Positions 22,840-63,620 of a stretch of 64,000 bases of DNA are shown here, one piece after another (the first letter of the stretch is position 1; every line of letters begins with the position of its first letter). The notes under the pieces are model-generated. The model saw only the letters and a program-made list of their open reading frames with translations, made no database searches and was not told the DNA's origin. The stretch comes from Isoptericola variabilis 225. Its GTDB lineage: Bacteria > Actinomycetota > Actinomycetes > Actinomycetales > Cellulomonadaceae. The DNA lies in NCBI RefSeq assembly GCF_000215105.1, contig NC_015588.1, forward strand, positions 310,001 through 374,000. Direction: 5' to 3'. Both the position numbers and the translations under genes were made by a program.

Positions 22840-23808
22840 GTGACCGACATGCGCGAGAACCCCACCGACGCCTTCGCCGGCGGCCCGCTCGACCTGCCGG
22901 GCTGGCGCCACGTCTACTCGGGCAAGGTGCGCGACCTGTACGAGCCGGACCTGCCCGCGCTGGGCGGCGCGCACCCCCTCGGCGACGTCGTGCTCGTCGT
23001 CGCGTCCGACCGCGTCTCGGCGTACGACCACGTGCTCAGCCCCGGCATCCCGGACAAGGGCGTGGTGCTCACGCAGCTGAGCCTGTGGTGGTTCGAGCAG
23101 CTCGCGGACGTCGTGGAGAACCACGTCGTGTCGACCGCGGTCAGCGCCGAGCCGGGCGACGGGCTCGTGCCCGACGTCGTCGCCGGGCGTGCGATGGTCT
23201 GCCGCCGGCTGCGGATGTTCCCCGTGGAATGCGTGGTGCGCGGGTACCTCACCGGGTCGGGGCTCGCGGAGTACCGCGCGAGCGGCGAGGTCACGGGCAT
23301 CCCGCTGCCGGAGGGCCTGGTCGACGGCTCGCGCCTGCCCGAGCCGATCTTCACGCCCGCGACCAAGGCGGAGGTCGGCGAGCACGACGAGAACGTCACG
23401 TTCGAGGAGGTCGTGCGCCGCATCGGGCCCGACGACGCCGCGCGCCTGCGCGACCTGACGCTCGCGATCTACGCCCGCGCCGAGGAGATCGCGCGTGAGC
23501 GCGGCGTGATCCTCGCCGACACCAAGCTCGAGTTCGGTATCGACCCCGCGACGGGCGCGACCGTGCTCGGCGACGAGGTGCTCACGCCGGACTCGTCGCG
23601 GTTCTGGCCCGCCGACCTCTGGGAGCCCGGCCGCCCGCAGCCGAGCTTCGACAAGCAGTTCGTGCGCGACTGGCTGACCTCGCCGGACTCCGGCTGGGAC
23701 CGCGCGTCGGACACGCCGCCGCCCGCGCTGCCCGACGACGTCGTGCGGCGCACACGCGAGCGCTACCTCGAGGCGTACGAGCGGCTGACGGGCCGTCCGC
23801 TGTCCTGA
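22840..23808 (+). CDS. purC: Phosphoribosylaminoimidazole-succinocarboxamide synthase (SAICAR synthetase)
   Basis: Condenses CAIR with aspartate in purine synthesis. The 322 residues include YSGKVRDLYEP (ATP-binding start), ASDRVSAYDHVL, VECVVRGYLTGSGLAEY and LADTKLEFGID, the long actinobacterial/eukaryote-like form. The GTG at 22840 matches the shared -10; an ATG three codons later is the alternative. The plus-strand purine run continues at purS, 2.5 kb on. Confidence 0.98.
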   Translation: MTDMRENPTDAFAGGPLDLPGWRHVYSGKVRDLYEPDLPALGGAHPLGDVVLVVASDRVSAYDHVLSPGIPDKGVVLTQLSLWWFEQLADVVENHVVSTAVSAEPGDGLVPDVVAGRAMVCRRLRMFPVECVVRGYLTGSGLAEYRASGEVTGIPLPEGLVDGSRLPEPIFTPATKAEVGEHDENVTFEEVVRRIGPDDAARLRDLTLAIYARAEEIARERGVILADTKLEFGIDPATGATVLGDEVLTPDSSRFWPADLWEPGRPQPSFDKQFVRDWLTSPDSGWDRASDTPPPALPDDVVRRTRERYLEAYERLTGRPLS

Positions 23809-26593: not shown

Positions 26594-27312
26594 TGTCGGC
26601 CGGCACGCTCGGGTCCGCCCGCATCGGGGTCATCACCTTCCCGGGCACGCTAGACGACCGTGACGCCGCCCGCGCGATCCGCCTCGCCGGCGGCGAGCCG
26701 GTCGCGCTCTGGCACGCCGACGGCGACCTGTCCGGCGTCGACGCCGTCGTCCTGCCAGGCGGCTTCTCGTACGGCGACTACCTCCGCGCCGGCGCGATCG
26801 CCCGCTTCGCCCCCGCGATGAGCGCCGTCGTCGACGCCGCGCGCGGTGGGATGCCGGTGCTGGGCATCTGCAACGGCTTCCAGATACTCACCGAGGCGCA
26901 CCTGCTGCCGGGCTCGATGATCAAGAACGACCACCTGCACTTCGTGTGCCGCGAGCAGGTCCTGTCGGTCGAGAACACCGAGACCGCCTGGACGAACCAG
27001 TACACCCCGGGCCAGCGCATCACGATCCCGCTGAAGAACCAGGACGGCCAGTTCGTCGCCGACGAGCGCACCCTCGACGAGCTCGAGGGCGAGGGCCGCG
27101 TCGTGTTCCGCTACCAGGGCTGGAACCCGAACGGTTCGCGCCGCGACATCGCGGGCATCTCGAACGCCGCCGGCAACGTCGTCGGGCTCATGCCGCACCC
27201 CGAGCACGCGGTCGAGGCCGGCTTCGGCCCGGACGCCGAGGACGGCCCGCGCGCCGGCACGGACGGCCTCGGTTTCTTCACGTCGGTGCTCGCCTCGCTC
27301 GTGCACGCGTGA
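26593..27312 (+). CDS. purQ: Phosphoribosylformylglycinamidine synthase subunit PurQ (glutaminase)
   Basis: A class I glutamine amidotransferase that supplies ammonia to PurL. The 239 residues have [18 protein letters not shown], the oxyanion [12 protein letters not shown], the nucleophile in GICNGFQIL, and the catalytic His/Glu in [11 protein letters not shown]. The ATG at 26593 overlaps the purS stop. The partner synthetase PurL lies 18.7 kb away, although these genes are usually adjacent. The stop overlaps the GTG of a GNAT-like remnant. Confidence 0.98.
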
Positions 27313-27668
27313 GCGCGTCCTCGGAGGCGTCCCGCGCGGTCTCGGTCGAGGTCGTCGCCGTGCGCGACGTCTCCGGTGTGGACGACGGCCGCGGACGCGG
27401 CACCGTGCACCCCGTCGCGACCGGTGAGGTCAAGCGGCTGTACGGGGCGCCGTCGCACCGCGGGCACGGCATCGCCCGCCGGCTCATGGACGAGACCGAG
27501 CAGTGTTCGCGCTCGCTCGGGTTCCGCACGCTCGTGCTCGAGACCGGCACGATGCAGCCCGAGGCCATGGCGCTGTACCCGGCGCTGGGGTACGAGCCGA
27601 TCGAGGCTACCGCGGCGGATCCTGCGCTACCTCGGCAGATCGTGCGCTACCTCGGCGAGAAGAGGTAG
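27309..27668 (+). CDS. GNAT acetyltransferase remnant
   Basis: Up to 119 residues with a recognisable central GNAT core: [22 protein letters not shown] (acetyl-CoA loop in RGHGIA) through [18 protein letters not shown] and ALGYEPIE. The N-terminal strands that should precede it are nearly absent. The C-terminus after GYEPIE is not family sequence but translated repeat units ([11 protein letters not shown]). It is probably a non-functional relic, perhaps still translated because its GTG overlaps the purQ stop. Confidence 0.55.
27624..27660. repeat. 20-bp-period GAGGTAGCGC repeat, cluster A (2 copies)
   Basis: GCGCTACCTCG occurs at 27624 and 27644, exactly 20 bases apart; both read GAGGTAGCGC on the minus strand. 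The second copy supplies the TAG stop codon of the minus-strand MBL gene. Both are read through by the GNAT remnant. Confidence 0.88.
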
Positions 27669-28453
27669 GCGAGCTGCGCGACGACGGACTGCCGCGCCGC
27701 GGGCAGCACGCTCTCGTCGACGTCGTCGTAGACCGCCTCCACCACACGCTCCGCAACACCCTCCGGGACCGGGCCGCCGCCGTCGGGCACCTCGACGCCG
27801 AGCGACCGCAGCGCGGCGCGGACCTGCTCGAGCCGCTCGAGCCGGTGCGCGCGGTACTGCCGGACGCGGTCGCCGAGGTCGTGGACGACCGGCCCGTGCC
27901 CGGGCAGGCCCTGGACGCCGTCGCCGAGCTGCTCGAGCACGTCGAGGCTCGCGAGGTAGTCGCCGAGCGACCCGTCGGGCTCGCTGATGACGGTGGTGCC
28001 CTCGCCGAGCACGGTGTCGCCGGTGACCACCACGGGCGGCTCGGCCGGCGTGGTCACGTGGAACGACACCGAGTCGGCCGTGTGCCCGGGCGTGGGGACG
28101 ACCTCGATGCGCAGGCCCGCCGCCTCGATCGCCTCGCCCGGGCGGAGCTCGTCCCCGCCGTGGCAGTGCGCAACGTCGGCGGCGCGCACCGGCGCCCCGG
28201 TGAGCTCGTGCAGACGTGCTGCGCCGGCCGTGTGGTCGCCGTGCCGGTGCGTCACGAGGACGAGCCCGACCGGTCCGGCGTCCGCGAGCGCGCGCAGGTG
28301 CGCGTCGTCGTCGGGGCCGGGGTCGACCACGACTGTGGTGCCCGCGCCCGGGGCGCGCAGCACGTAGGAGCGGGTCCCGTCGAGCGTCATCGGGCCGGGG
28401 TTGTCGGCGCGGAGCACGGCCGCGAAGGGCGTGACCGGTGTGAGGGCGTTCAT
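27647..28453 (-). CDS. MBL-fold metallo-hydrolase
   Basis: A 268-residue metallo-beta-lactamase-fold hydrolase with the dinuclear zinc motif THRHGDHTAG, the later ligands PTPGHTADS and VTGDTVLG, and a C-terminal helical domain of the LACTB2/RNase Z-like type. The substrate is unknown. The ATG overlaps the stop of the upstream PIN-domain gene (ATGA). Its last residues FSPR and its TAG stop are encoded by a repeat unit (TTCTCGCCGAGGTAGCGC), so the native C-terminus was probably replaced. Confidence 0.88.
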   Translation of the reverse strand: MNALTPVTPFAAVLRADNPGPMTLDGTRSYVLRAPGAGTTVVVDPGPDDDAHLRALADAGPVGLVLVTHRHGDHTAGAARLHELTGAPVRAADVAHCHGGDELRPGEAIEAAGLRIEVVPTPGHTADSVSFHVTTPAEPPVVVTGDTVLGEGTTVISEPDGSLGDYLASLDVLEQLGDGVQGLPGHGPVVHDLGDRVRQYRAHRLERLEQVRAALRSLGVEVPDGGGPVPEGVAERVVEAVYDDVDESVLPAARQSVVAQLAYLFSPR

Positions 28454-32428: not shown

Positions 32429-32543
32429 CAGGTCAAGAGCGCCAGCGCCAAGCCCCGGCTCGCTGGCCGGCAACCCTCCCCTCGCGGCGGGGTGCCCCGG
32501 GTGACGACCTGGCCCGCGCCGACCGGCGTCGGGCAAGCGCGGG
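32429..32543 (+). promoter_or_regulatory. SAM-IV riboswitch
   Basis: P1 is CAGGTC (32429-32434) with GACCTG (32506-32511). P2 is GCCAGCG (32441-32447) with CGCTGGC (32461-32467). The actinobacterial SAM-IV core is present: CAAGCCCCGGCTCGCTGGC, CGGCAACCCTCC and GGTGCCCCGGGTGA. The SAM-IV-specific extra helix follows: CCCGCGC (32513-32519) with GCGCGGG (32537-32543), enclosing CGAC/GTCG. It precedes a class V aminotransferase gene. Confidence 0.92.
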
Positions 32544-32570
32544 GAGACGCCTCCCCGAGACCGAGGAGGA
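32541..32570 (+). promoter_or_regulatory. Likely expression platform of the SAM-IV riboswitch
   Basis: GGGGAG/CTCCCC (32541-32546 with 32551-32556) overlaps the last three bases of the riboswitch 3' helix, so the two cannot form together. The freed CCTCCCC could instead pair with the ribosome-binding site GGAGGA at 32565-32570. This suggests control of translation; it is inferred from pairing by eye. Confidence 0.5.
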
Positions 32571-32573
32571 CGC

Positions 32574-34016
32574 ATGACCACGCTGACCGAGACCCTGCTC
32601 TGTCCGGAGCGCGCCGACGACGTCGCGAGCGTCGCGGACCTGCCCGCGGTGCTGCCCGTCGTCGGGCGCGACACGCTCGTCCCGCTCGTGGACGGCCGCG
32701 AGGTCCGGTACGCCAACCTCGACGTCGCGGCGTCGGCCCCCGCGCTGCAGGCCGTCGCCGACCGCGTGAACCAGGTCCTGCCCCTGTACGCGAGCGTGCA
32801 CCGCGGCGCGGGCTACCTCTCGCAGGTCTCGACCGCGCTCTACGAGGCGGCCCGCCGCGCGATCGGCGCGTTCGTCGGCGCGCGCGAGGACGACGTCACG
32901 ATCGTCACGCGCAACACGACCGACTCGCTCAACCTCCTCGCGGGCTGCGTCCCGGCCGACCCCGTCACCGGCGAGCCGGGCCGCGTGCTTGTGCTCGACG
33001 TCGAGCACCACGCCAACTTCCTGCCCTGGCAGCGCGACGCCGCCGCGACCGTGCTCACCGGGCGCGGCACCGTGGCCGAGACGCTCGCCGAGATCCGCGC
33101 CGAGCTGCGGTCCGCGGCCGTCGAGGGCCGGCCGTACGCGCTGCTCGCGCTGACGGGGGCGTCGAACGTCACGGGCGAGGCCCTGCCGGTCGCCGAGGTC
33201 GTCGCCGCGGCGCACGACGCCGGCGCGCGCGTCCTGCTCGACGGCGCGCAGCTCGTGCCGCACCGCCGGCTCTCGCTCGCCGAGACCGGCGTCGACTACG
33301 TCGCGTTCTCCGGGCACAAGACGTACGCGCCGTTCGGCGCGGGCGCGCTCGTCGGTCGCCGCGACTGGCTCGACGTCGGCACGCCGTACCTCGCGGGCGG
33401 CGGGGCGGTCCGGCGCGTGCGGGTCGGCGGGACCGAGTGGCACGACGGGCCCGCGCGGCACGAGGCCGGGTCGCCCAACGTCGTCGGCGCGGTGGCGCTC
33501 GCGGCCGCGTGCGAGGCGCTCGCCGCGCTCGACCCGGCCGAGGTGCGCGAGCACGAGGACGCGCTGCGGCGCCGGCTCGTGGCGGGCCTGGAGGCGCTGG
33601 ACCGCGTCGAGGTCGTGCGGGTGTGGTCCGACGCCGCGGACCCCGTGGGCGTCGTGACGTTCACCGTGGCCGGGTACGACCCGGGCCTCGTGGCCGCCTA
33701 CCTCTCCGCCGAGCACGGCATCGGCGTGCGCGACGGCCGCTTCTGCGCGCACCCGCTGCTCGGCCGGCTCGGGTTCGACGCCGGGGCCGTGCGCGCGTCG
33801 GTCGGCGTCGGGACCACGGGCGAGGAGGTCGAGCGCCTCGTCGCCGCCGTGGCCGCGCTCGTGGCCGAGGGCCCGCAGGCGCGGTACGACGTCGTCGACG
33901 GGCTGTGGGTCGTCGTCGACGACCCGCGTCCCGTGCCCGAGGGCTCCGGGCTCGAGGGGCTGCTGGCGACCGCCGCGCTCGGCGCCGACGAGGCGTTCGG
34001 CTGCCTCCCCGACTGA
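32574..34016 (+). CDS. Class V aminotransferase, SufS/CsdA-like cysteine desulfurase
   Basis: A 480-residue PLP enzyme. It shows YANLDVAASAPALQAV and VHRGAGYLSQVST near the start, VTRNTTDSLNLLAG, VEHHANFLPW, the internal aldimine lysine in FSGHKTYAPFGAG, and VRDGRFCAHPLL, where the Cys aligns with the persulfide cysteine of SufS/CsdA. It is longer than SufS by about 70 residues, mostly an acidic C-terminal tail. A SAM-IV riboswitch upstream and the divergent rhodanese-metZ operon suggest a role in sulfur or methionine supply; the exact reaction is not established. Confidence 0.85.
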   Translation: MTTLTETLLCPERADDVASVADLPAVLPVVGRDTLVPLVDGREVRYANLDVAASAPALQAVADRVNQVLPLYASVHRGAGYLSQVSTALYEAARRAIGAFVGAREDDVTIVTRNTTDSLNLLAGCVPADPVTGEPGRVLVLDVEHHANFLPWQRDAAATVLTGRGTVAETLAEIRAELRSAAVEGRPYALLALTGASNVTGEALPVAEVVAAAHDAGARVLLDGAQLVPHRRLSLAETGVDYVAFSGHKTYAPFGAGALVGRRDWLDVGTPYLAGGGAVRRVRVGGTEWHDGPARHEAGSPNVVGAVALAAACEALAALDPAEVREHEDALRRRLVAGLEALDRVEVVRVWSDAADPVGVVTFTVAGYDPGLVAAYLSAEHGIGVRDGRFCAHPLLGRLGFDAGAVRASVGVGTTGEEVERLVAAVAALVAEGPQARYDVVDGLWVVVDDPRPVPEGSGLEGLLATAALGADEAFGCLPD

Positions 34017-34225
34017 CGAGGTAGCGCACTTCTCGCCGAGGTAGCGCACTTCTCGCCGAGGTAGCGCGATTCTCGCCGAGGTAGCGCGTTTCTCGCCGAG
34101 GTAGCGCGTTTTTCGCCGAGGTAGCGCGGCCGCAGCGCTACCTCGCGACGCGGAGCGCTACTTCGCGGGCCCGAGCGCTACTTCGCGACGCGGAGCGCTA
34201 CTTCGCGACGTGGAGCGCTACCTCG
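34017..34225. repeat. 20-bp-period GAGGTAGCGC repeat, cluster B (6 direct + 5 inverted copies)
   Basis: Direct copies of GAGGTAGCGC start at 34018, 34038, 34058, 34078, 34098 and 34118. Inverted copies (GCGCTACYTCG) start at 34135, 34155, 34175, 34195 and 34215. The first copy follows the aminotransferase TGA with one base between, and the last abuts the amidase stop on the minus strand, so both ends read TGACGAGGTAGCGC. The 9-10-base spacers vary. The two halves can fold on each other. Confidence 0.95.
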
Positions 34226-35680
34226 TCACCAGAGGGGTGGGCGGCGGTCCGGCCAGCGGAGCCGGTCCTCGAGCTGCGCGGCGAGGGCGAGCAACGTGAG
34301 CTCGCCGCCGGGCCGGCCGATGATCTGGATGCCCATCGGCAGGCCGTCGTCCGTCCAGTGCGTCGGCACGGTGACCGCGGGCAGGCCCGACACGTTGAGC
34401 CAGGACGTGAACGGCGTGTACTGGCACTGCTGCTCGAAGTTGCGCTCCGGGTCCTCGGCGTCGAACCAGCCGAGCGGCCGCGGCGTCATCGCGAGCGCCG
34501 GCGTCACGACGGCGTCGAACGCCGAGACCTGCGCCACGAGCCGGCGCTCGAACCCCGACAGCGTGCGCAGCGCCTCGACGAGCTGCCGGGCCGGGACCTC
34601 GCGCCCGCGCCCGACCAGCCAGCGGGTCAGCGGCTCGAGCAGGTCGAGCCGTGACGGGTCGTCGATCGGCACCGCCGACGCCCCGGCCATCCACAGGGTG
34701 CGGAACGCGGGGCCGTACTCGGGTGCCGGGTCGAGGTCGATGTCGGTGATGTCGTGACCGAGCCCGGCGAGCGACCACACGCCCGCGTCGAGCGCGGAGA
34801 TCGCCTCGGGGCTCACGCGGACGTCGTAGAAGTCGTCCCACGCCGAGTCGGTCGTCACGGCCAGGCGGAGGCGCTCGGGCCCGTCCGGCACCGTGCCCCA
34901 CAGCGCGGTCGCGAGGTAGTCGCCGGACCGGGCCGACGGCGCGCGCAGCGTGTACCCGTGCGCCACCTCGCCCTTCGTGGTCCACGGGATCATGCCCTCG
35001 AGCAGCAGCGCGGCGTCCGCCGTCGTGCGCGCGAGCGGGCCCGCGACGACGAGCCCGCCGAGCGACTCGAGCCCCGACCCGCCCGGCACCAGCCCGCGCG
35101 ACGGCTTGAGCCCGACGACGCCGCACGCCGCGGCCGGGATGCGCACCGACCCACCGCCGTCGGACCCCGGCGCGAACGGCAGCAGCCCCGCGGCGACCGC
35201 CACGGCCGCGCCGCCGCTCGACCCGCCCGCCCCGCGCGTCAGGTCCCACGGGTTGCGCGCGACGGGTCCGGTCAGCGGCTCGGTGTACGCGGGGAAGCCG
35301 AGCTCCGGCGTCGACGTCTTGCCGAGGCTCACCGCGCCCGCGGCGTCGAGCTGCAGGACGAGGTCGTCGCTCACGTCGGGCACGAACCGGTGCTCGCCCG
35401 CGAACGCCCGCGAGCCCATCCCCGTCGGCACGCCCGCCCGGTTCCACAGGTCCTTGTCGCCGCTCGGCAACCCCCACAGCTCGCCCGACGGCGGCCCCGC
35501 GGTGAGCTCCGCGGCCCGCTCGCGCGCGGCGTCGGCCGTGACGGTGGCGAAGGCGCCGACCTGCGGACCGAGCTTCTCGACCCGCCCCAGGAAGTGCTCG
35601 ACCACCTCCGTGGGCGTGATCTCGCGCGAACGGAGGCGGTCGCGGAGCGTGACGGCGGTCTGCTCGTGCAGGGCGTCCAT
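34226..35680 (-). CDS. Amidase (amidase-signature family)
   Basis: A 484-residue amide hydrolase with the Ser-cisSer-Lys triad: Lys in LPSGDKDLWNRAG, the glycine/serine signature GAGGSSGGAAVAVAAG, and the nucleophile region GSDGGGSVRIPAA. The substrate is not evident; the family includes aryl-amide and Glu-tRNA amidotransferase relatives, and no gatB/gatC is nearby. The ATG has TAGCCT six bases upstream. It is divergent from a GNAT gene and ends directly in repeat cluster B. Confidence 0.92.
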   Translation of the reverse strand: MDALHEQTAVTLRDRLRSREITPTEVVEHFLGRVEKLGPQVGAFATVTADAARERAAELTAGPPSGELWGLPSGDKDLWNRAGVPTGMGSRAFAGEHRFVPDVSDDLVLQLDAAGAVSLGKTSTPELGFPAYTEPLTGPVARNPWDLTRGAGGSSGGAAVAVAAGLLPFAPGSDGGGSVRIPAAACGVVGLKPSRGLVPGGSGLESLGGLVVAGPLARTTADAALLLEGMIPWTTKGEVAHGYTLRAPSARSGDYLATALWGTVPDGPERLRLAVTTDSAWDDFYDVRVSPEAISALDAGVWSLAGLGHDITDIDLDPAPEYGPAFRTLWMAGASAVPIDDPSRLDLLEPLTRWLVGRGREVPARQLVEALRTLSGFERRLVAQVSAFDAVVTPALAMTPRPLGWFDAEDPERNFEQQCQYTPFTSWLNVSGLPAVTVPTHWTDDGLPMGIQIIGRPGGELTLLALAAQLEDRLRWPDRRPPLW

Positions 35681-49236: not shown

Positions 49237-49268
49237 ACGCCCCTCCACCCGCGTGGGTGGAGGGGCGT
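49237..49268. terminator. Hairpin between the 48799 gene and icd
   Basis: Perfect 14-bp stem ACGCCCCTCCACCC / GGGTGGAGGGGCGT with loop GCGT, lying between convergent genes next to repeat cluster C. Confidence 0.8.
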
Positions 49269-49320
49269 GCTACGTCGGCGAGAAGAGCGCTACCTCGGCG
49301 AGATGAGCGCTACCTCGGCA
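49267..49320. repeat. 20-bp-period GAGGTAGCGC repeat, cluster C (3 copies)
   Basis: Copies start at 49267 (GTGCTACGTCG, two changes), 49287 and 49307 (GCGCTACCTCG), exactly 20 bases apart. All read GAGGTAGCGC on the minus strand. The cluster lies directly after the icd stop codon (TAG at 49321-49323). Confidence 0.9.
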
Positions 49321-51581
<2,261 letters not shown>

Positions 51582-61802: not shown

Positions 61803-61863
61803 CGGACGACCGCAAGCATACCGGGGGAGCCGGTCCGCTCCCGGACCGGGCAGGATGGTCCCC

Positions 61864-62220
61864 GTGGTGGTCGAGATGAGTCGCGACGAGTTCGAGGACG
61901 CCGTCCGCGACGGCCTGGACATGGTGCCGGCCGACCTGGCGGCGCTCATGGACAACGTGGTCGTGCTCGTCGAGGACGACGCGCCCGCCGAGGAGCCCGA
62001 GCTCCTCGGCCTCTACGAGGGCGTCCCGCTCACCGAGCGCGGGCAGTTCTGGGCCGCGGGCTCGCTGCCCGACCGCATCACGATCTTCCGCAACCCGACG
62101 CTCGCCATCTGCGACACGCGCGAGGACGTTGTCGAGGAGGTCGCGATCACCGTCGTGCACGAGATCGCGCACCACTTCGGCATCGACGACGACCGCCTCC
62201 ACGAGCTCGGCTGGGCCTGA
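61864..62220 (+). CDS. Metallopeptidase family protein (zincin-like)
   Basis: About 118 residues of the small actinobacterial metallopeptidase family: MSRDEFEDAVRDGLDMVPAD, LLGLYEGVPLTERGQFWAAG, DRITIFRNPTLAICDTRED and the zinc motif VVHEIAHHFGIDDDRLHELG. Substrate and role are unknown. The GTG at 61864 has CAGGAT seven bases upstream; an ATG at 61876 is the alternative. Repeat cluster D begins four bases after the stop. Confidence 0.87.
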   Translation: MVVEMSRDEFEDAVRDGLDMVPADLAALMDNVVVLVEDDAPAEEPELLGLYEGVPLTERGQFWAAGSLPDRITIFRNPTLAICDTREDVVEEVAITVVHEIAHHFGIDDDRLHELGWA

Positions 62221-62224
62221 CCGC

Positions 62225-62294
62225 GAGGTAGCGCTCCGGCTCGCGAGGTAGCGCGCGAGCTGGCGAGGTAGCGCTCGGGCTCGCGAGGTAGCGC
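62225..62294. repeat. 20-bp-period GAGGTAGCGC repeat, cluster D1 (4 direct copies)
   Basis: GAGGTAGCGC starts at 62225, 62245, 62265 and 62285, with variable 10-base spacers. The first is four bases after the metallopeptidase stop. Confidence 0.93.
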
Positions 62295-62350
62295 GACCTC
62301 CGTCCGCGTTCGTCACCTTCCGGCGGCCGATCACGGACGAACAGAGACGG

Positions 62351-62384
62351 AGATGCCCGACGCCGGTACCGACGTCGGGCATCT
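62351..62384. terminator. Hairpin at the centre of repeat cluster D
   Basis: Perfect 12-bp stem AGATGCCCGACG / CGTCGGGCATCT with a 10-base loop. It separates the direct copies (D1) from the inverted copies (D2). Confidence 0.8.
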
Positions 62385-62495
62385 GCGCTACTTCGGCGAG
62401 CGACGCGCTACCTCGGCGGGCTGTGCGCTACCTCGGCGGGCTGTGCGCTACTTCGCGGAGGGGCGCGCTACTTCGGCGGGCTGTGCGCTACCTCG
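62385..62495. repeat. 20-bp-period GAGGTAGCGC repeat, cluster D2 (6 inverted copies)
   Basis: GCGCTACYTCG starts at 62385, 62405, 62425, 62445, 62465 and 62485. The last copy abuts the stop codon of the carboxypeptidase gene, so the minus strand reads TGACGAGGTAGCGC. Confidence 0.93.
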
Positions 62496-63620
62496 TCAGG
62501 GGAGGGGCGTGTACTCCCAGTGCCATGCCTCGGGCTTCTTGCCACCCGGACGGGCCCAGTCGGGGTTGTCCCAGCCGAAGGCGGGGGCGTTGGCCCGCAG
62601 CCACTCGTACTGCGCGGTGCCGAAGCTCTGCACGCCGCCGCCGAGGTCGACCGCGACGCCCCAGCCGTGGTTGGAGTACCCGGGGACGGCCGCGAGGTAG
62701 CCGCGGCTCGCCTTCGTCGCGACCTGCGACGAGTACGACCGGTAGGAGTCGGTGATCTCGAGGTGCCGGCCGAACGCCGCCTGGAACGCGGTGTCGAGGC
62801 GCTCGAGCTGCGCGGCCGCGTCGCAACGCAGCGTCTGCCCGGGCGCGAACGACAGCTCGCACAGCGCGGCGGTCGGGATCCGGCCGTTGGAGTAGCCGGC
62901 GGTGTCCTTGGCGTGCACGGCGAGGGACGCGGCCGCGGTGGCCGCGGCCTTCTTCTGCTCCTCGAGGATCTCGGCCGGCGTCGGGGGAGCGGCCTCGATG
63001 TCGACGGCCGCCGAGGCAGCCTGGTCGAGCAGCGTGCGCAGCGAGGTCGTCGCCTCGCTGAGCTGCGCGGACGGGTCGGCGGACGCCGCCTCGGGGGCGG
63101 CCTGCGGCGTGGCGTCGAGCGGTGCGCGCTCGCCCGCGCGCGACGCGGTGCCGGAGGTGTCGCGGGTCTCGAGGAGCTGGTGCACCGCGGCGACCTGCTG
63201 CTCGATCTTGGCGAGCTGGTCGGCGGGGACGGCCACGGCGTCGGCCGTGAGCACGGACGCCCGCTGGAGCGTCGCCTGCGCGGCCGCGAGCGCCTCGGGG
63301 TCGACGCCGGACGCCGGCTCGGCGGTCCGCTGCGTCGGCTCGGGCGCCGGCGAGGCCTCGGGCGAGGGGGTCGCGGGGGCGGTGCCGACGCTCGGCTCGG
63401 CGGTCACGGCGCGCACCAGCGAGGGGGTGCCGGCGCCCGTCGCCGCGCTCACGCCGGTGGCGAGGCCGGTCGACAGCGCCATCACGCCGAGCGCGGCGGG
63501 GACGCCCAGGCGCGCGCCGCGTCCGGTAGCGCGTCGCGCCGGGATGCGGAATGCTCGGCCGGAGGGCCGGTGGATGTCACGGCGCCGGGGGAGCGGCGCG
63601 GCATCGTGGTTCTGGTTCAC
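62496..63620 (-). CDS. M15-family D-alanyl-D-alanine carboxypeptidase (VanY-like), exported
   Basis: 374 residues. A basic head and one hydrophobic segment (about 45-65) form an export signal or anchor, followed by a long Ala/Pro/Glu-rich helical linker (about 70-240). The C-terminal VanY-type peptidase domain (about 255-374) has ITDSYRSYSSQVATKA, the zinc ligands in GYSNHGWGVAVDLGGG, and AWHWEYTP. It trims peptidoglycan stem peptides or acts as a wall hydrolase. The GTG at 63620 follows AAGGA; a longer frame starts at 63692. Confidence 0.9.
   Translation of the reverse strand: MNQNHDAAPLPRRRDIHRPSGRAFRIPARRATGRGARLGVPAALGVMALSTGLATGVSAATGAGTPSLVRAVTAEPSVGTAPATPSPEASPAPEPTQRTAEPASGVDPEALAAAQATLQRASVLTADAVAVPADQLAKIEQQVAAVHQLLETRDTSGTASRAGERAPLDATPQAAPEAASADPSAQLSEATTSLRTLLDQAASAAVDIEAAPPTPAEILEEQKKAAATAAASLAVHAKDTAGYSNGRIPTAALCELSFAPGQTLRCDAAAQLERLDTAFQAAFGRHLEITDSYRSYSSQVATKASRGYLAAVPGYSNHGWGVAVDLGGGVQSFGTAQYEWLRANAPAFGWDNPDWARPGGKKPEAWHWEYTPLP

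Follow-up and report, generated by a model that had tools for sequence, protein, structure and literature searches.

A 20-bp tandem repeat family with inverted arms at gene 3' ends in Isoptericola variabilis 225 and its relatives

The genome of Isoptericola variabilis 225 carries a dispersed family of short repeats in which a conserved core recurs every 20 bases. The arrays are extragenic, mostly begin near a stop codon of the same sense, are enriched between convergent genes and, in about half of the clusters sampled, consist of two opposed arms. Related repeats span the genus in dialects that largely follow the tree, stand at orthologous gene ends in differing copy number, and are found in some genomes as a compact inverted repeat whose stem covaries. 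Our preferred reading, with a probability of roughly 0.45, is that of a dispersed, transcribed 3'-end hairpin element of the REP/BIME sort, which grows into tandem arms at stop codons.

Repeat arrays in the window

The window is the whole 64-kb stretch of DNA that was analysed, and G000 denotes its genome (3.31 Mb, one contig). The exact 10-base core GAGGTAGCGC has 20 matches in the window, compared with 0.21 expected from shuffles. With variants counted, 26 core copies at 20-base spacing form four clusters (27624, 34018-34224, 49267, and 62225-62494), and this recount agrees with an earlier sequence-only reading of the same DNA. The six copies in one direction followed by five inverted ones that it described are recovered as well (+ at 34018-34127, − at 34135-34224, period 20), and so is the identical TGACGAGGTAGCGC following three stops (from 34014 on the + strand, from 34228 and 62498 on the − strand). 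The arms and their surroundings are listed below.

27624..27653, −: 2-unit arm; the − gene 27647-28453 stops at the TAG in the arm's first core
32574..34016, +: class-V aminotransferase gene (PF00266), flanking the array
34018..34127, +: 6-unit tandem arm (GAGGTAGCGC plus a 10-base spacer), beginning 1 base past the TGA of gene 32574-34016
34135..34224, −: opposed 5-unit arm, beginning 1 base past the TGA of gene 34226-35680
34226..35680, −: amidase gene (PF01425), convergent flank of the array
49237..49268, no strand: palindrome, a terminator-like ordinary hairpin beyond the single arm 3' of icd (read by eye)
49267..49316, −: single arm of 3 units, one of them degenerate, 3' of icd (49321-51537, −)
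62225..62294, +: 4-unit arm past the TGA of the zincin-like gene 61855-62220
62352..62383, no strand: palindrome in the loop between arms 62225-62294 and 62385-62494 (read by eye)
62385..62494, −: 6-unit arm past the TGA of the VanY-like gene 62496-63485

A weakly scoring + ORF (27309-27668) reads through both copies at 27624, and one isolated exact core lies inside a gene at position 23760. According to an Rfam 15 scan of the window at the gathering score, only SAM-IV and three tRNAs are present, and no family matches the repeat. The SAM-IV riboswitch (32431-32545, +, 97.4 bits) is located directly upstream of the class-V aminotransferase gene that has the array at its 3' end.

Genome-wide counts and gene context

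Searched for across the whole of G000 at 20-base spacing (≤2 mismatches), the core gives 238 forward and 246 reverse adjacent pairs, 484 in all, versus 0 + 0 for the reversed pattern; a chance origin of the repeats is rejected on the basis of this control. Gene context was read in a sample made up of the window and 40 stretches of 20 kb spaced evenly over the genome (864 kb, 26% of G000), where a purpose-made codon-usage finder predicted 812 genes at 90.5% coding. Among 29 clusters, 27 were kept, the other two being inside genes (stretch L066) and left out of the counts. The 27 clusters comprise 41 arms and about 197 units, which scales by hand to approximately 100 clusters and 600-750 units for the entire genome.

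The sequence-only reading placed every cluster between convergent genes, which holds within the window (4/4) and does not extend to the wider sample, where 14 of the 27 clusters are convergent, 10 co-directional, and 3 divergent (read by hand). Enrichment between convergent genes is nevertheless 5.5-fold: clusters occupy 14 of 136 convergent gene pairs versus 13 of the 635 pairs in other arrangements (odds ratio 5.5, p = 4e-5), with convergent counts entered by hand from the cluster listing. Since the window was picked for its clusters, its inclusion skews the sample; with the window left out, 10 of the remaining 23 clusters are convergent, again counted by hand. Exact tandem core copies are distributed over convergent gaps (74), co-directional gaps (42, of which 24 sense and 18 antisense), divergent gaps (15), and genes (4). 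Exact intergenic singles number 2, compared with 131 exact intergenic copies in tandem. Within the sampled genes the core occurs 18 times versus a maximal-order Markov estimate of 19.4, a count that exceeds the 95% point of composition-matched 10-mers (13) but not their 99% point (33).

Both arms are present in 13 of the 27 clusters and a single arm in 14, one of the latter (L067) being close to the end of its stretch. Six single-arm clusters oppose another arm across one or two genes. Opposed arms with genes between them were noted at three places, L075 9763-10915 (nadC), L076 4763-5782 (an unassigned gene), and L046 11095-12317 (a DUF4260 gene and a weak ORF), as if the genes had entered the loop. 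As for chromosomal position, the origin-proximal half is denser in clusters (22 in 464 kb versus 5 in 400 kb, p = 0.003, window included, hand-entered counts); dnaA- and dnaN-like genes were recognised by eye at the contig start.

Anchoring at stop codons

Of the 41 arms, 29 start close to a same-sense stop (−27 to +40 bases): 27 of them at −12..+40, plus one arm each in L059 and L075 whose second core contains the stop. In 11 of the 41 arms the gene terminates at the TAG belonging to the first core, and in six arms a TGA stop is followed immediately by C and the core. TAG stops are used in 12 of the 27 near arms (−12..+40) versus 96 of 749 genes. The remaining arms are mostly the partner of an inverted pair, ahead of the next gene's start, and two arms (L042 12010 and L079 4948) have no such partner-arm explanation. 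The claim that each copy points away from a stop codon is therefore correct for 29 arms and has to be given up for the others, mostly inverted-pair partners. The outcome that the sequence-only reading named as refuting, a predominance of copies away from stops or within genes, did not occur.

Unit structure and folding

The conserved word in G000 is CGAVGTAGCGC. Conservation stands at 99% for its C ahead of the core, which was unused in detection. The letters that flank TAG (C-GA and then G on its left, CGC on its right) reach about the same degree of conservation as TAG does, with the exception of the third core base (G 75%, C 14%, A 11%, T none). The spacer is loose and pyrimidine-rich, with two S positions. 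Spacing is strict, as 146 of 162 neighbouring cores on the same strand (up to 130 bp apart, ≤1 mismatch) are separated by exactly 20 bases. Adjacent spacers in one arm of G000 are identical at 6.5 of 10 positions versus 4.4 between arms; arms therefore grow by local duplication. Spacers of different loci are little alike, and no recent whole-array copying is seen.

A single unit does not fold, the mean MFE of 156 G000 units being −3.3 compared with −4.0 for shuffles. The opposed halves of the window array, which had been said to be able to fold together, do so (34015-34227, z = −8.2 on the + strand and −4.0 on the − strand). A terminator scan of window positions 33900-34400 reported 0 sites, with no T-run or U-tract after the hairpin. 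At the 13 two-arm clusters of G000, opposed arms of the same locus do not share spacers (5.17 versus 5.32 permuted, p = 0.65), so arm pairing in this genome is carried by the cores alone, and the shared cores need no hairpin selection. In G110, where 11 two-arm loci were obtained from 20 fetched, arms at one locus do share spacers (5.20 versus 4.30 of 9 permuted, p = 0.007).

A compact form of the repeat occurs in G122 and G049 (genus g8), a 69-bp inverted repeat composed of core, 9 bases, core, a 7-base loop, and the reverse. It holds four 11-base cores, two facing two, and usually lies soon after a stop codon. Covariation was computed from an alignment of 18 loci picked by their cores and not their spacers (8 of 8 fetched from G122 and 10 of 12 from G049, with L363 and L370 excluded as not being of the 69-bp shape). 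The stem has 31 pairs and 93.4% of cells paired, versus 34-46% when slid; 14 of the 31 pairs are changed on both sides, and the covariation score is 0.284 compared with 0.111 for shuffled data. The compact form is either a selected hairpin or a hairpin maintained by DNA-level palindrome correction, and the covariation could also come from the latter.

Distribution in relatives and dialects

All tallies of relatives include G000. A pair in the exact dialect (≤1 mismatch) is found in 7 of 150 family genomes, and a pair of the looser GAGGTAGNNC set 20 bases apart (≤1 mismatch) in 17 of 18 genomes of the genus (control 0); the repeat family hence spans the genus. A doubled CGAGNNAGNNC is found in 42 of 150 genomes of the family, among them all 16 listed members of genus g8, where some matches look like chance. 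At the order level, an exact GAGGTAGNNC pair is present in 6 of 297 genomes, and only G204 (one match) is outside the family. In one genome, G090 (genus g10), the loose 20-period pattern has 109 + 105 matches, but the control has 32 + 40 too. As for a phage origin, a three-unit pattern scan of viral_contigs gave 2 contigs, both with a period of 10 bp and not 20, and this candidate was rejected. These IMG/VR contigs carry CGAGGTAG words in 10-bp-period tandems (L332 2514-2563 and L333 10753-10802).

According to a motif-free lag analysis of 14 sampled genomes, the top period is 20 in G000 and six relatives (G058, G122, G110, G084, G141, and G094). Other periods are reported for G145 (22 and 23), G098 (21), and G049 (18), and no clear period for G116, G072, G021, and G103; k-mer enrichment in the relatives' samples was too weak to use. 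The frame CGAG..AG is kept at period 20 (22 in the ATAG dialect), while the inner letters differ largely by clade. The dialects, which largely track the tree with small per-genome counts for most relatives, are the following.

GTAG-CGC: G000, G150, G151
GTAG-AAC with some CGC: G141
GTAG-TGC with CGC: G084, G103
GTAG-GC[AC]: G042, G058
TCAG: G116, G122, and also G094, which groups with G058
GTAG-T[TC]C: G110
ATAG-AGA, period 22: G137, G145, G149; G145 and G149 also have GTAG

The core of the TCAG dialect, CGAGTCAGCGC, contains no stop codon on the sense strand, yet it forms 20-base arrays near gene ends. GTCG variants of the core also exist.

Orthologous gene ends

In the 3' regions of icd, purH, rpsA, sdhB, and nadB (up to 18 genomes), 198 core matches are found versus 2 for the reversed control. 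Orthologous 3' ends often carry the element in the genome's own dialect and in other copy numbers, down to one core. For icd, cores are present in 12 of 16 genomes in the GTAG, ATAG, or TCAG dialect, with one match each in G103 and G132; the stretch of G094 is incomplete, no core element is seen in G084 and G021, and G072 has an element of 19-base period with another core. The nadB gene ends in GCGAGG-TAG in 7 of 17 genomes (G000, G150, G145, G132, G103, G084, and G110) and in a close variant of it in G058, G149, and G042. Its copy number ranges from one core (G145 and G132) to seven or eight (G150 and G084). The convergent neighbour of rpsA has one core in G150, G151, and G141 and nine in G000, where Asp-Val-Ala codons are now Glu-Val-Ala and spell out a perfect core that precedes the seed by 20 bases (one case, read by eye).

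The element is missing at sdhB in 8 of 18 genomes, at rpsA in 13 of 18, and at purH in 10 of 18 (one purH stretch being incomplete). In four of the other eight purH regions (G150, G151, G141, and G132) the match is a single GTAG core, probably part of the neighbour's coding sequence, and these were not counted as seeds.

Two other recurrent elements were observed. One is a dispersed palindrome of ~57 bp whose feet, CGAGCGTGC...GCACGCTCG, are constant and whose interior is tinged by clade, present in 17 of 18 genus genomes at 1-16 copies each (control 0), although a few matches may be due to chance. Its loci include L374-L379 and the 3' region of purH in G021, G058, G116, G122, and G042 (L116, L117, L122, L119, and L120). 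The other is a recurrent hairpin between convergent genes, whose inner module GTTCACGG...CCTCCACTTCGG is common and whose stems differ (by eye). It is seen at L052 7273-7489, at L202, L206, L200, and L204, and in the sdhB 3' regions of G084, G116, G021, and G058.

Interpretation

Under the reading of a 3'-end hairpin element, the compact 69-bp inverted repeat would be the older form. Its RNA stem would act at the mRNA 3' end as a mark, a block, or a protection, and a single element placed between convergent genes could serve the two transcripts at once. The window's species is one of several in which the arms would have been lengthened by local tandem duplication in 20-base steps, mostly beginning at a stop codon and often providing the stop through the core TAG. 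Cores that are uniform across the genome, spacers that drift freely, and dialects that change at fixed sites together suggest a sequence-specific trans-acting partner or repeated spread within the genome. Among the roles put forward by the sequence-only reading, a bidirectional 3'-end signal still fits well, and so does a repeat growing next to stops. Against the 3'-end element, several arms adjoin a separate ordinary hairpin (e.g., window 49237-49268), so that the terminator may be something other than the array. In addition, 3 clusters lie between divergent genes, 14 of 27 are one-armed, no U-tract follows at 33900-34400, and the element is often missing at orthologous ends. If the 3'-end reading is right, the genomes form a natural series that starts with a single seed core, passes through the covarying hairpin of 69 bp, and leads to long tandem arms, in part at orthologous stops; the origin of REP-like repeats without a RAYT transposase, as well as what keeps many scattered copies alike, would then become directly testable. 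The series would also show a repeat capturing stop codons with the TAG of its core. A bolder version, which we consider rather unlikely, sees the family as a code that punctuates gene 3' ends throughout the genome and is read by a putative fast-evolving, sequence-specific RNA- or DNA-binding factor; a shift in the specificity of this factor would make dispersed arrays change letters together and give each clade its own dialect at orthologous sites.

A selfish or drift-driven repeat, seeded at 3' ends where it does least harm, growing by slippage, and spreading between loci, is a possible although doubtful account. It agrees with the wide variation of copy number among species at orthologous sites, the coexistence of two dialects in G122, G149, and G145, the local duplication shown by spacers, and the entry of some arms into coding ends (the first core is in frame at nadB and at the rpsA neighbour, by eye). 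Pure slippage, however, does not predict a near-invariant core with drifting spacers; spacers also differ between loci, so recent whole-array copying is not seen, and 18 genomes searched for Y1 transposases alone (the RAYT family) contained none. A further account, which we regard as unlikely, takes the arrays as binding sites that place a protein on one face of the DNA helix (20-22 bp being about two turns) and could act as a roadblock or insulator where transcription units meet. Strict spacing (146 of 162 neighbours), nearly invariant G000 cores with free spacers, and G000 spacers that do not maintain arm pairing all speak for it, and the dialects would fit co-evolution with a binding protein. 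However, the compact form covaries as a hairpin, and the icd element of G072 (period 19, another core), if it is a family member, misfits two turns.

The translation backstop proposed by the sequence-only reading, in which TAG in three frames stops ribosomes that run past the stop, is very improbable. Three units do give a TAG in each frame, and the core TAG serves as the stop in 11 arms. It fails as a general role, however, because CGAGTCAG arrays of the TCAG dialect have no sense stop; most core letters around TAG are also about as conserved as TAG, and no over-running ribosome is present at arms ahead of gene starts. A DNA uptake sequence placed in terminators, as in Neisseriaceae, is hardly to be expected here. 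The likeness to DUS, as described in the accessible text of PMC3630211, lies in the dialects by clade and in the inverted pairs that stand at gene ends, but the in-gene core is near its Markov estimate (18 versus 19.4, though above the 95% point of matched 10-mers), single intergenic copies are rare (2 exact versus 131 in tandem), and the word "tandem" is absent from the accessible portions of PMC3630211 and PMC2397512. DUS-like drive is disfavoured by the first two of these counts.

Comparison with known systems

Like intrinsic terminators, the repeat can provide a stable hairpin shortly past a stop codon. Unlike them, it has no U-tract at the window site, its sequence is common to many loci, and its arrays reach 9 units. 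Mycobacterial MIRU/VNTR are likewise tandem intergenic repeats of an actinobacterium that touch stop codons and vary in copy number, and MIRU units are tens of bases long. The present repeat differs from them in its 20-base unit, 11-base constant core, inverted arms, and clade dialects. With the DUS of Neisseriaceae it shares a motif of ~10 bases, clade dialects, and inverted pairs at terminators (PMC3630211, accessible text), but it has no clear excess in coding regions and is organised in tandem 20-base arrays.

The closest comparison is with GTAG-tagged REP. According to the accessible parts of Di Nocera 2013 (PMC3733652), these are high-copy, extragenic sequences located mostly 3' of genes in convergent or co-directional gaps, whose GTAG termini often supply the TAG stops of flanking ORFs; inverted partners can fold into larger structures, and several families may share a genome. 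The 20-bp repeat is similarly extragenic, lies 3' of genes (29 of 41 arms), has inverted partners (13 of 27 clusters), contains a GTAG motif, and supplies TAG stops. The sequence-only reading knew of no named element of this kind. A literature search of incomplete coverage agrees, having returned no paper on such repeats in this bacterial group, and among the listed papers containing the core string none appeared relevant from title and abstract start; the stop anchoring, in contrast, has a precedent in GTAG REP (PMC3733652, same parts). Whereas the GTAG-REP/BIME unit is 20-40 bp and self-complementary, the 20-mer here does not fold, and the 69-bp form is palindromic as a whole. Whereas the GTAG REP tag is terminal and unpaired, GTAG lies here inside the paired core, and TCAG and GTCG variants lack it. 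A RAYT (Y1_Tnp) gene was found in 0 of 18 genus genomes, the control search being positive in 6 of 14 named genomes including E. coli, and RAYT-driven REP was rejected accordingly. Since unit palindrome, unpaired tag, and RAYT were each looked for and each came out differently here, the repeat is not filed as GTAG-REP/BIME. In its placement, and to some extent in its form, it works as REP/BIME elements do.
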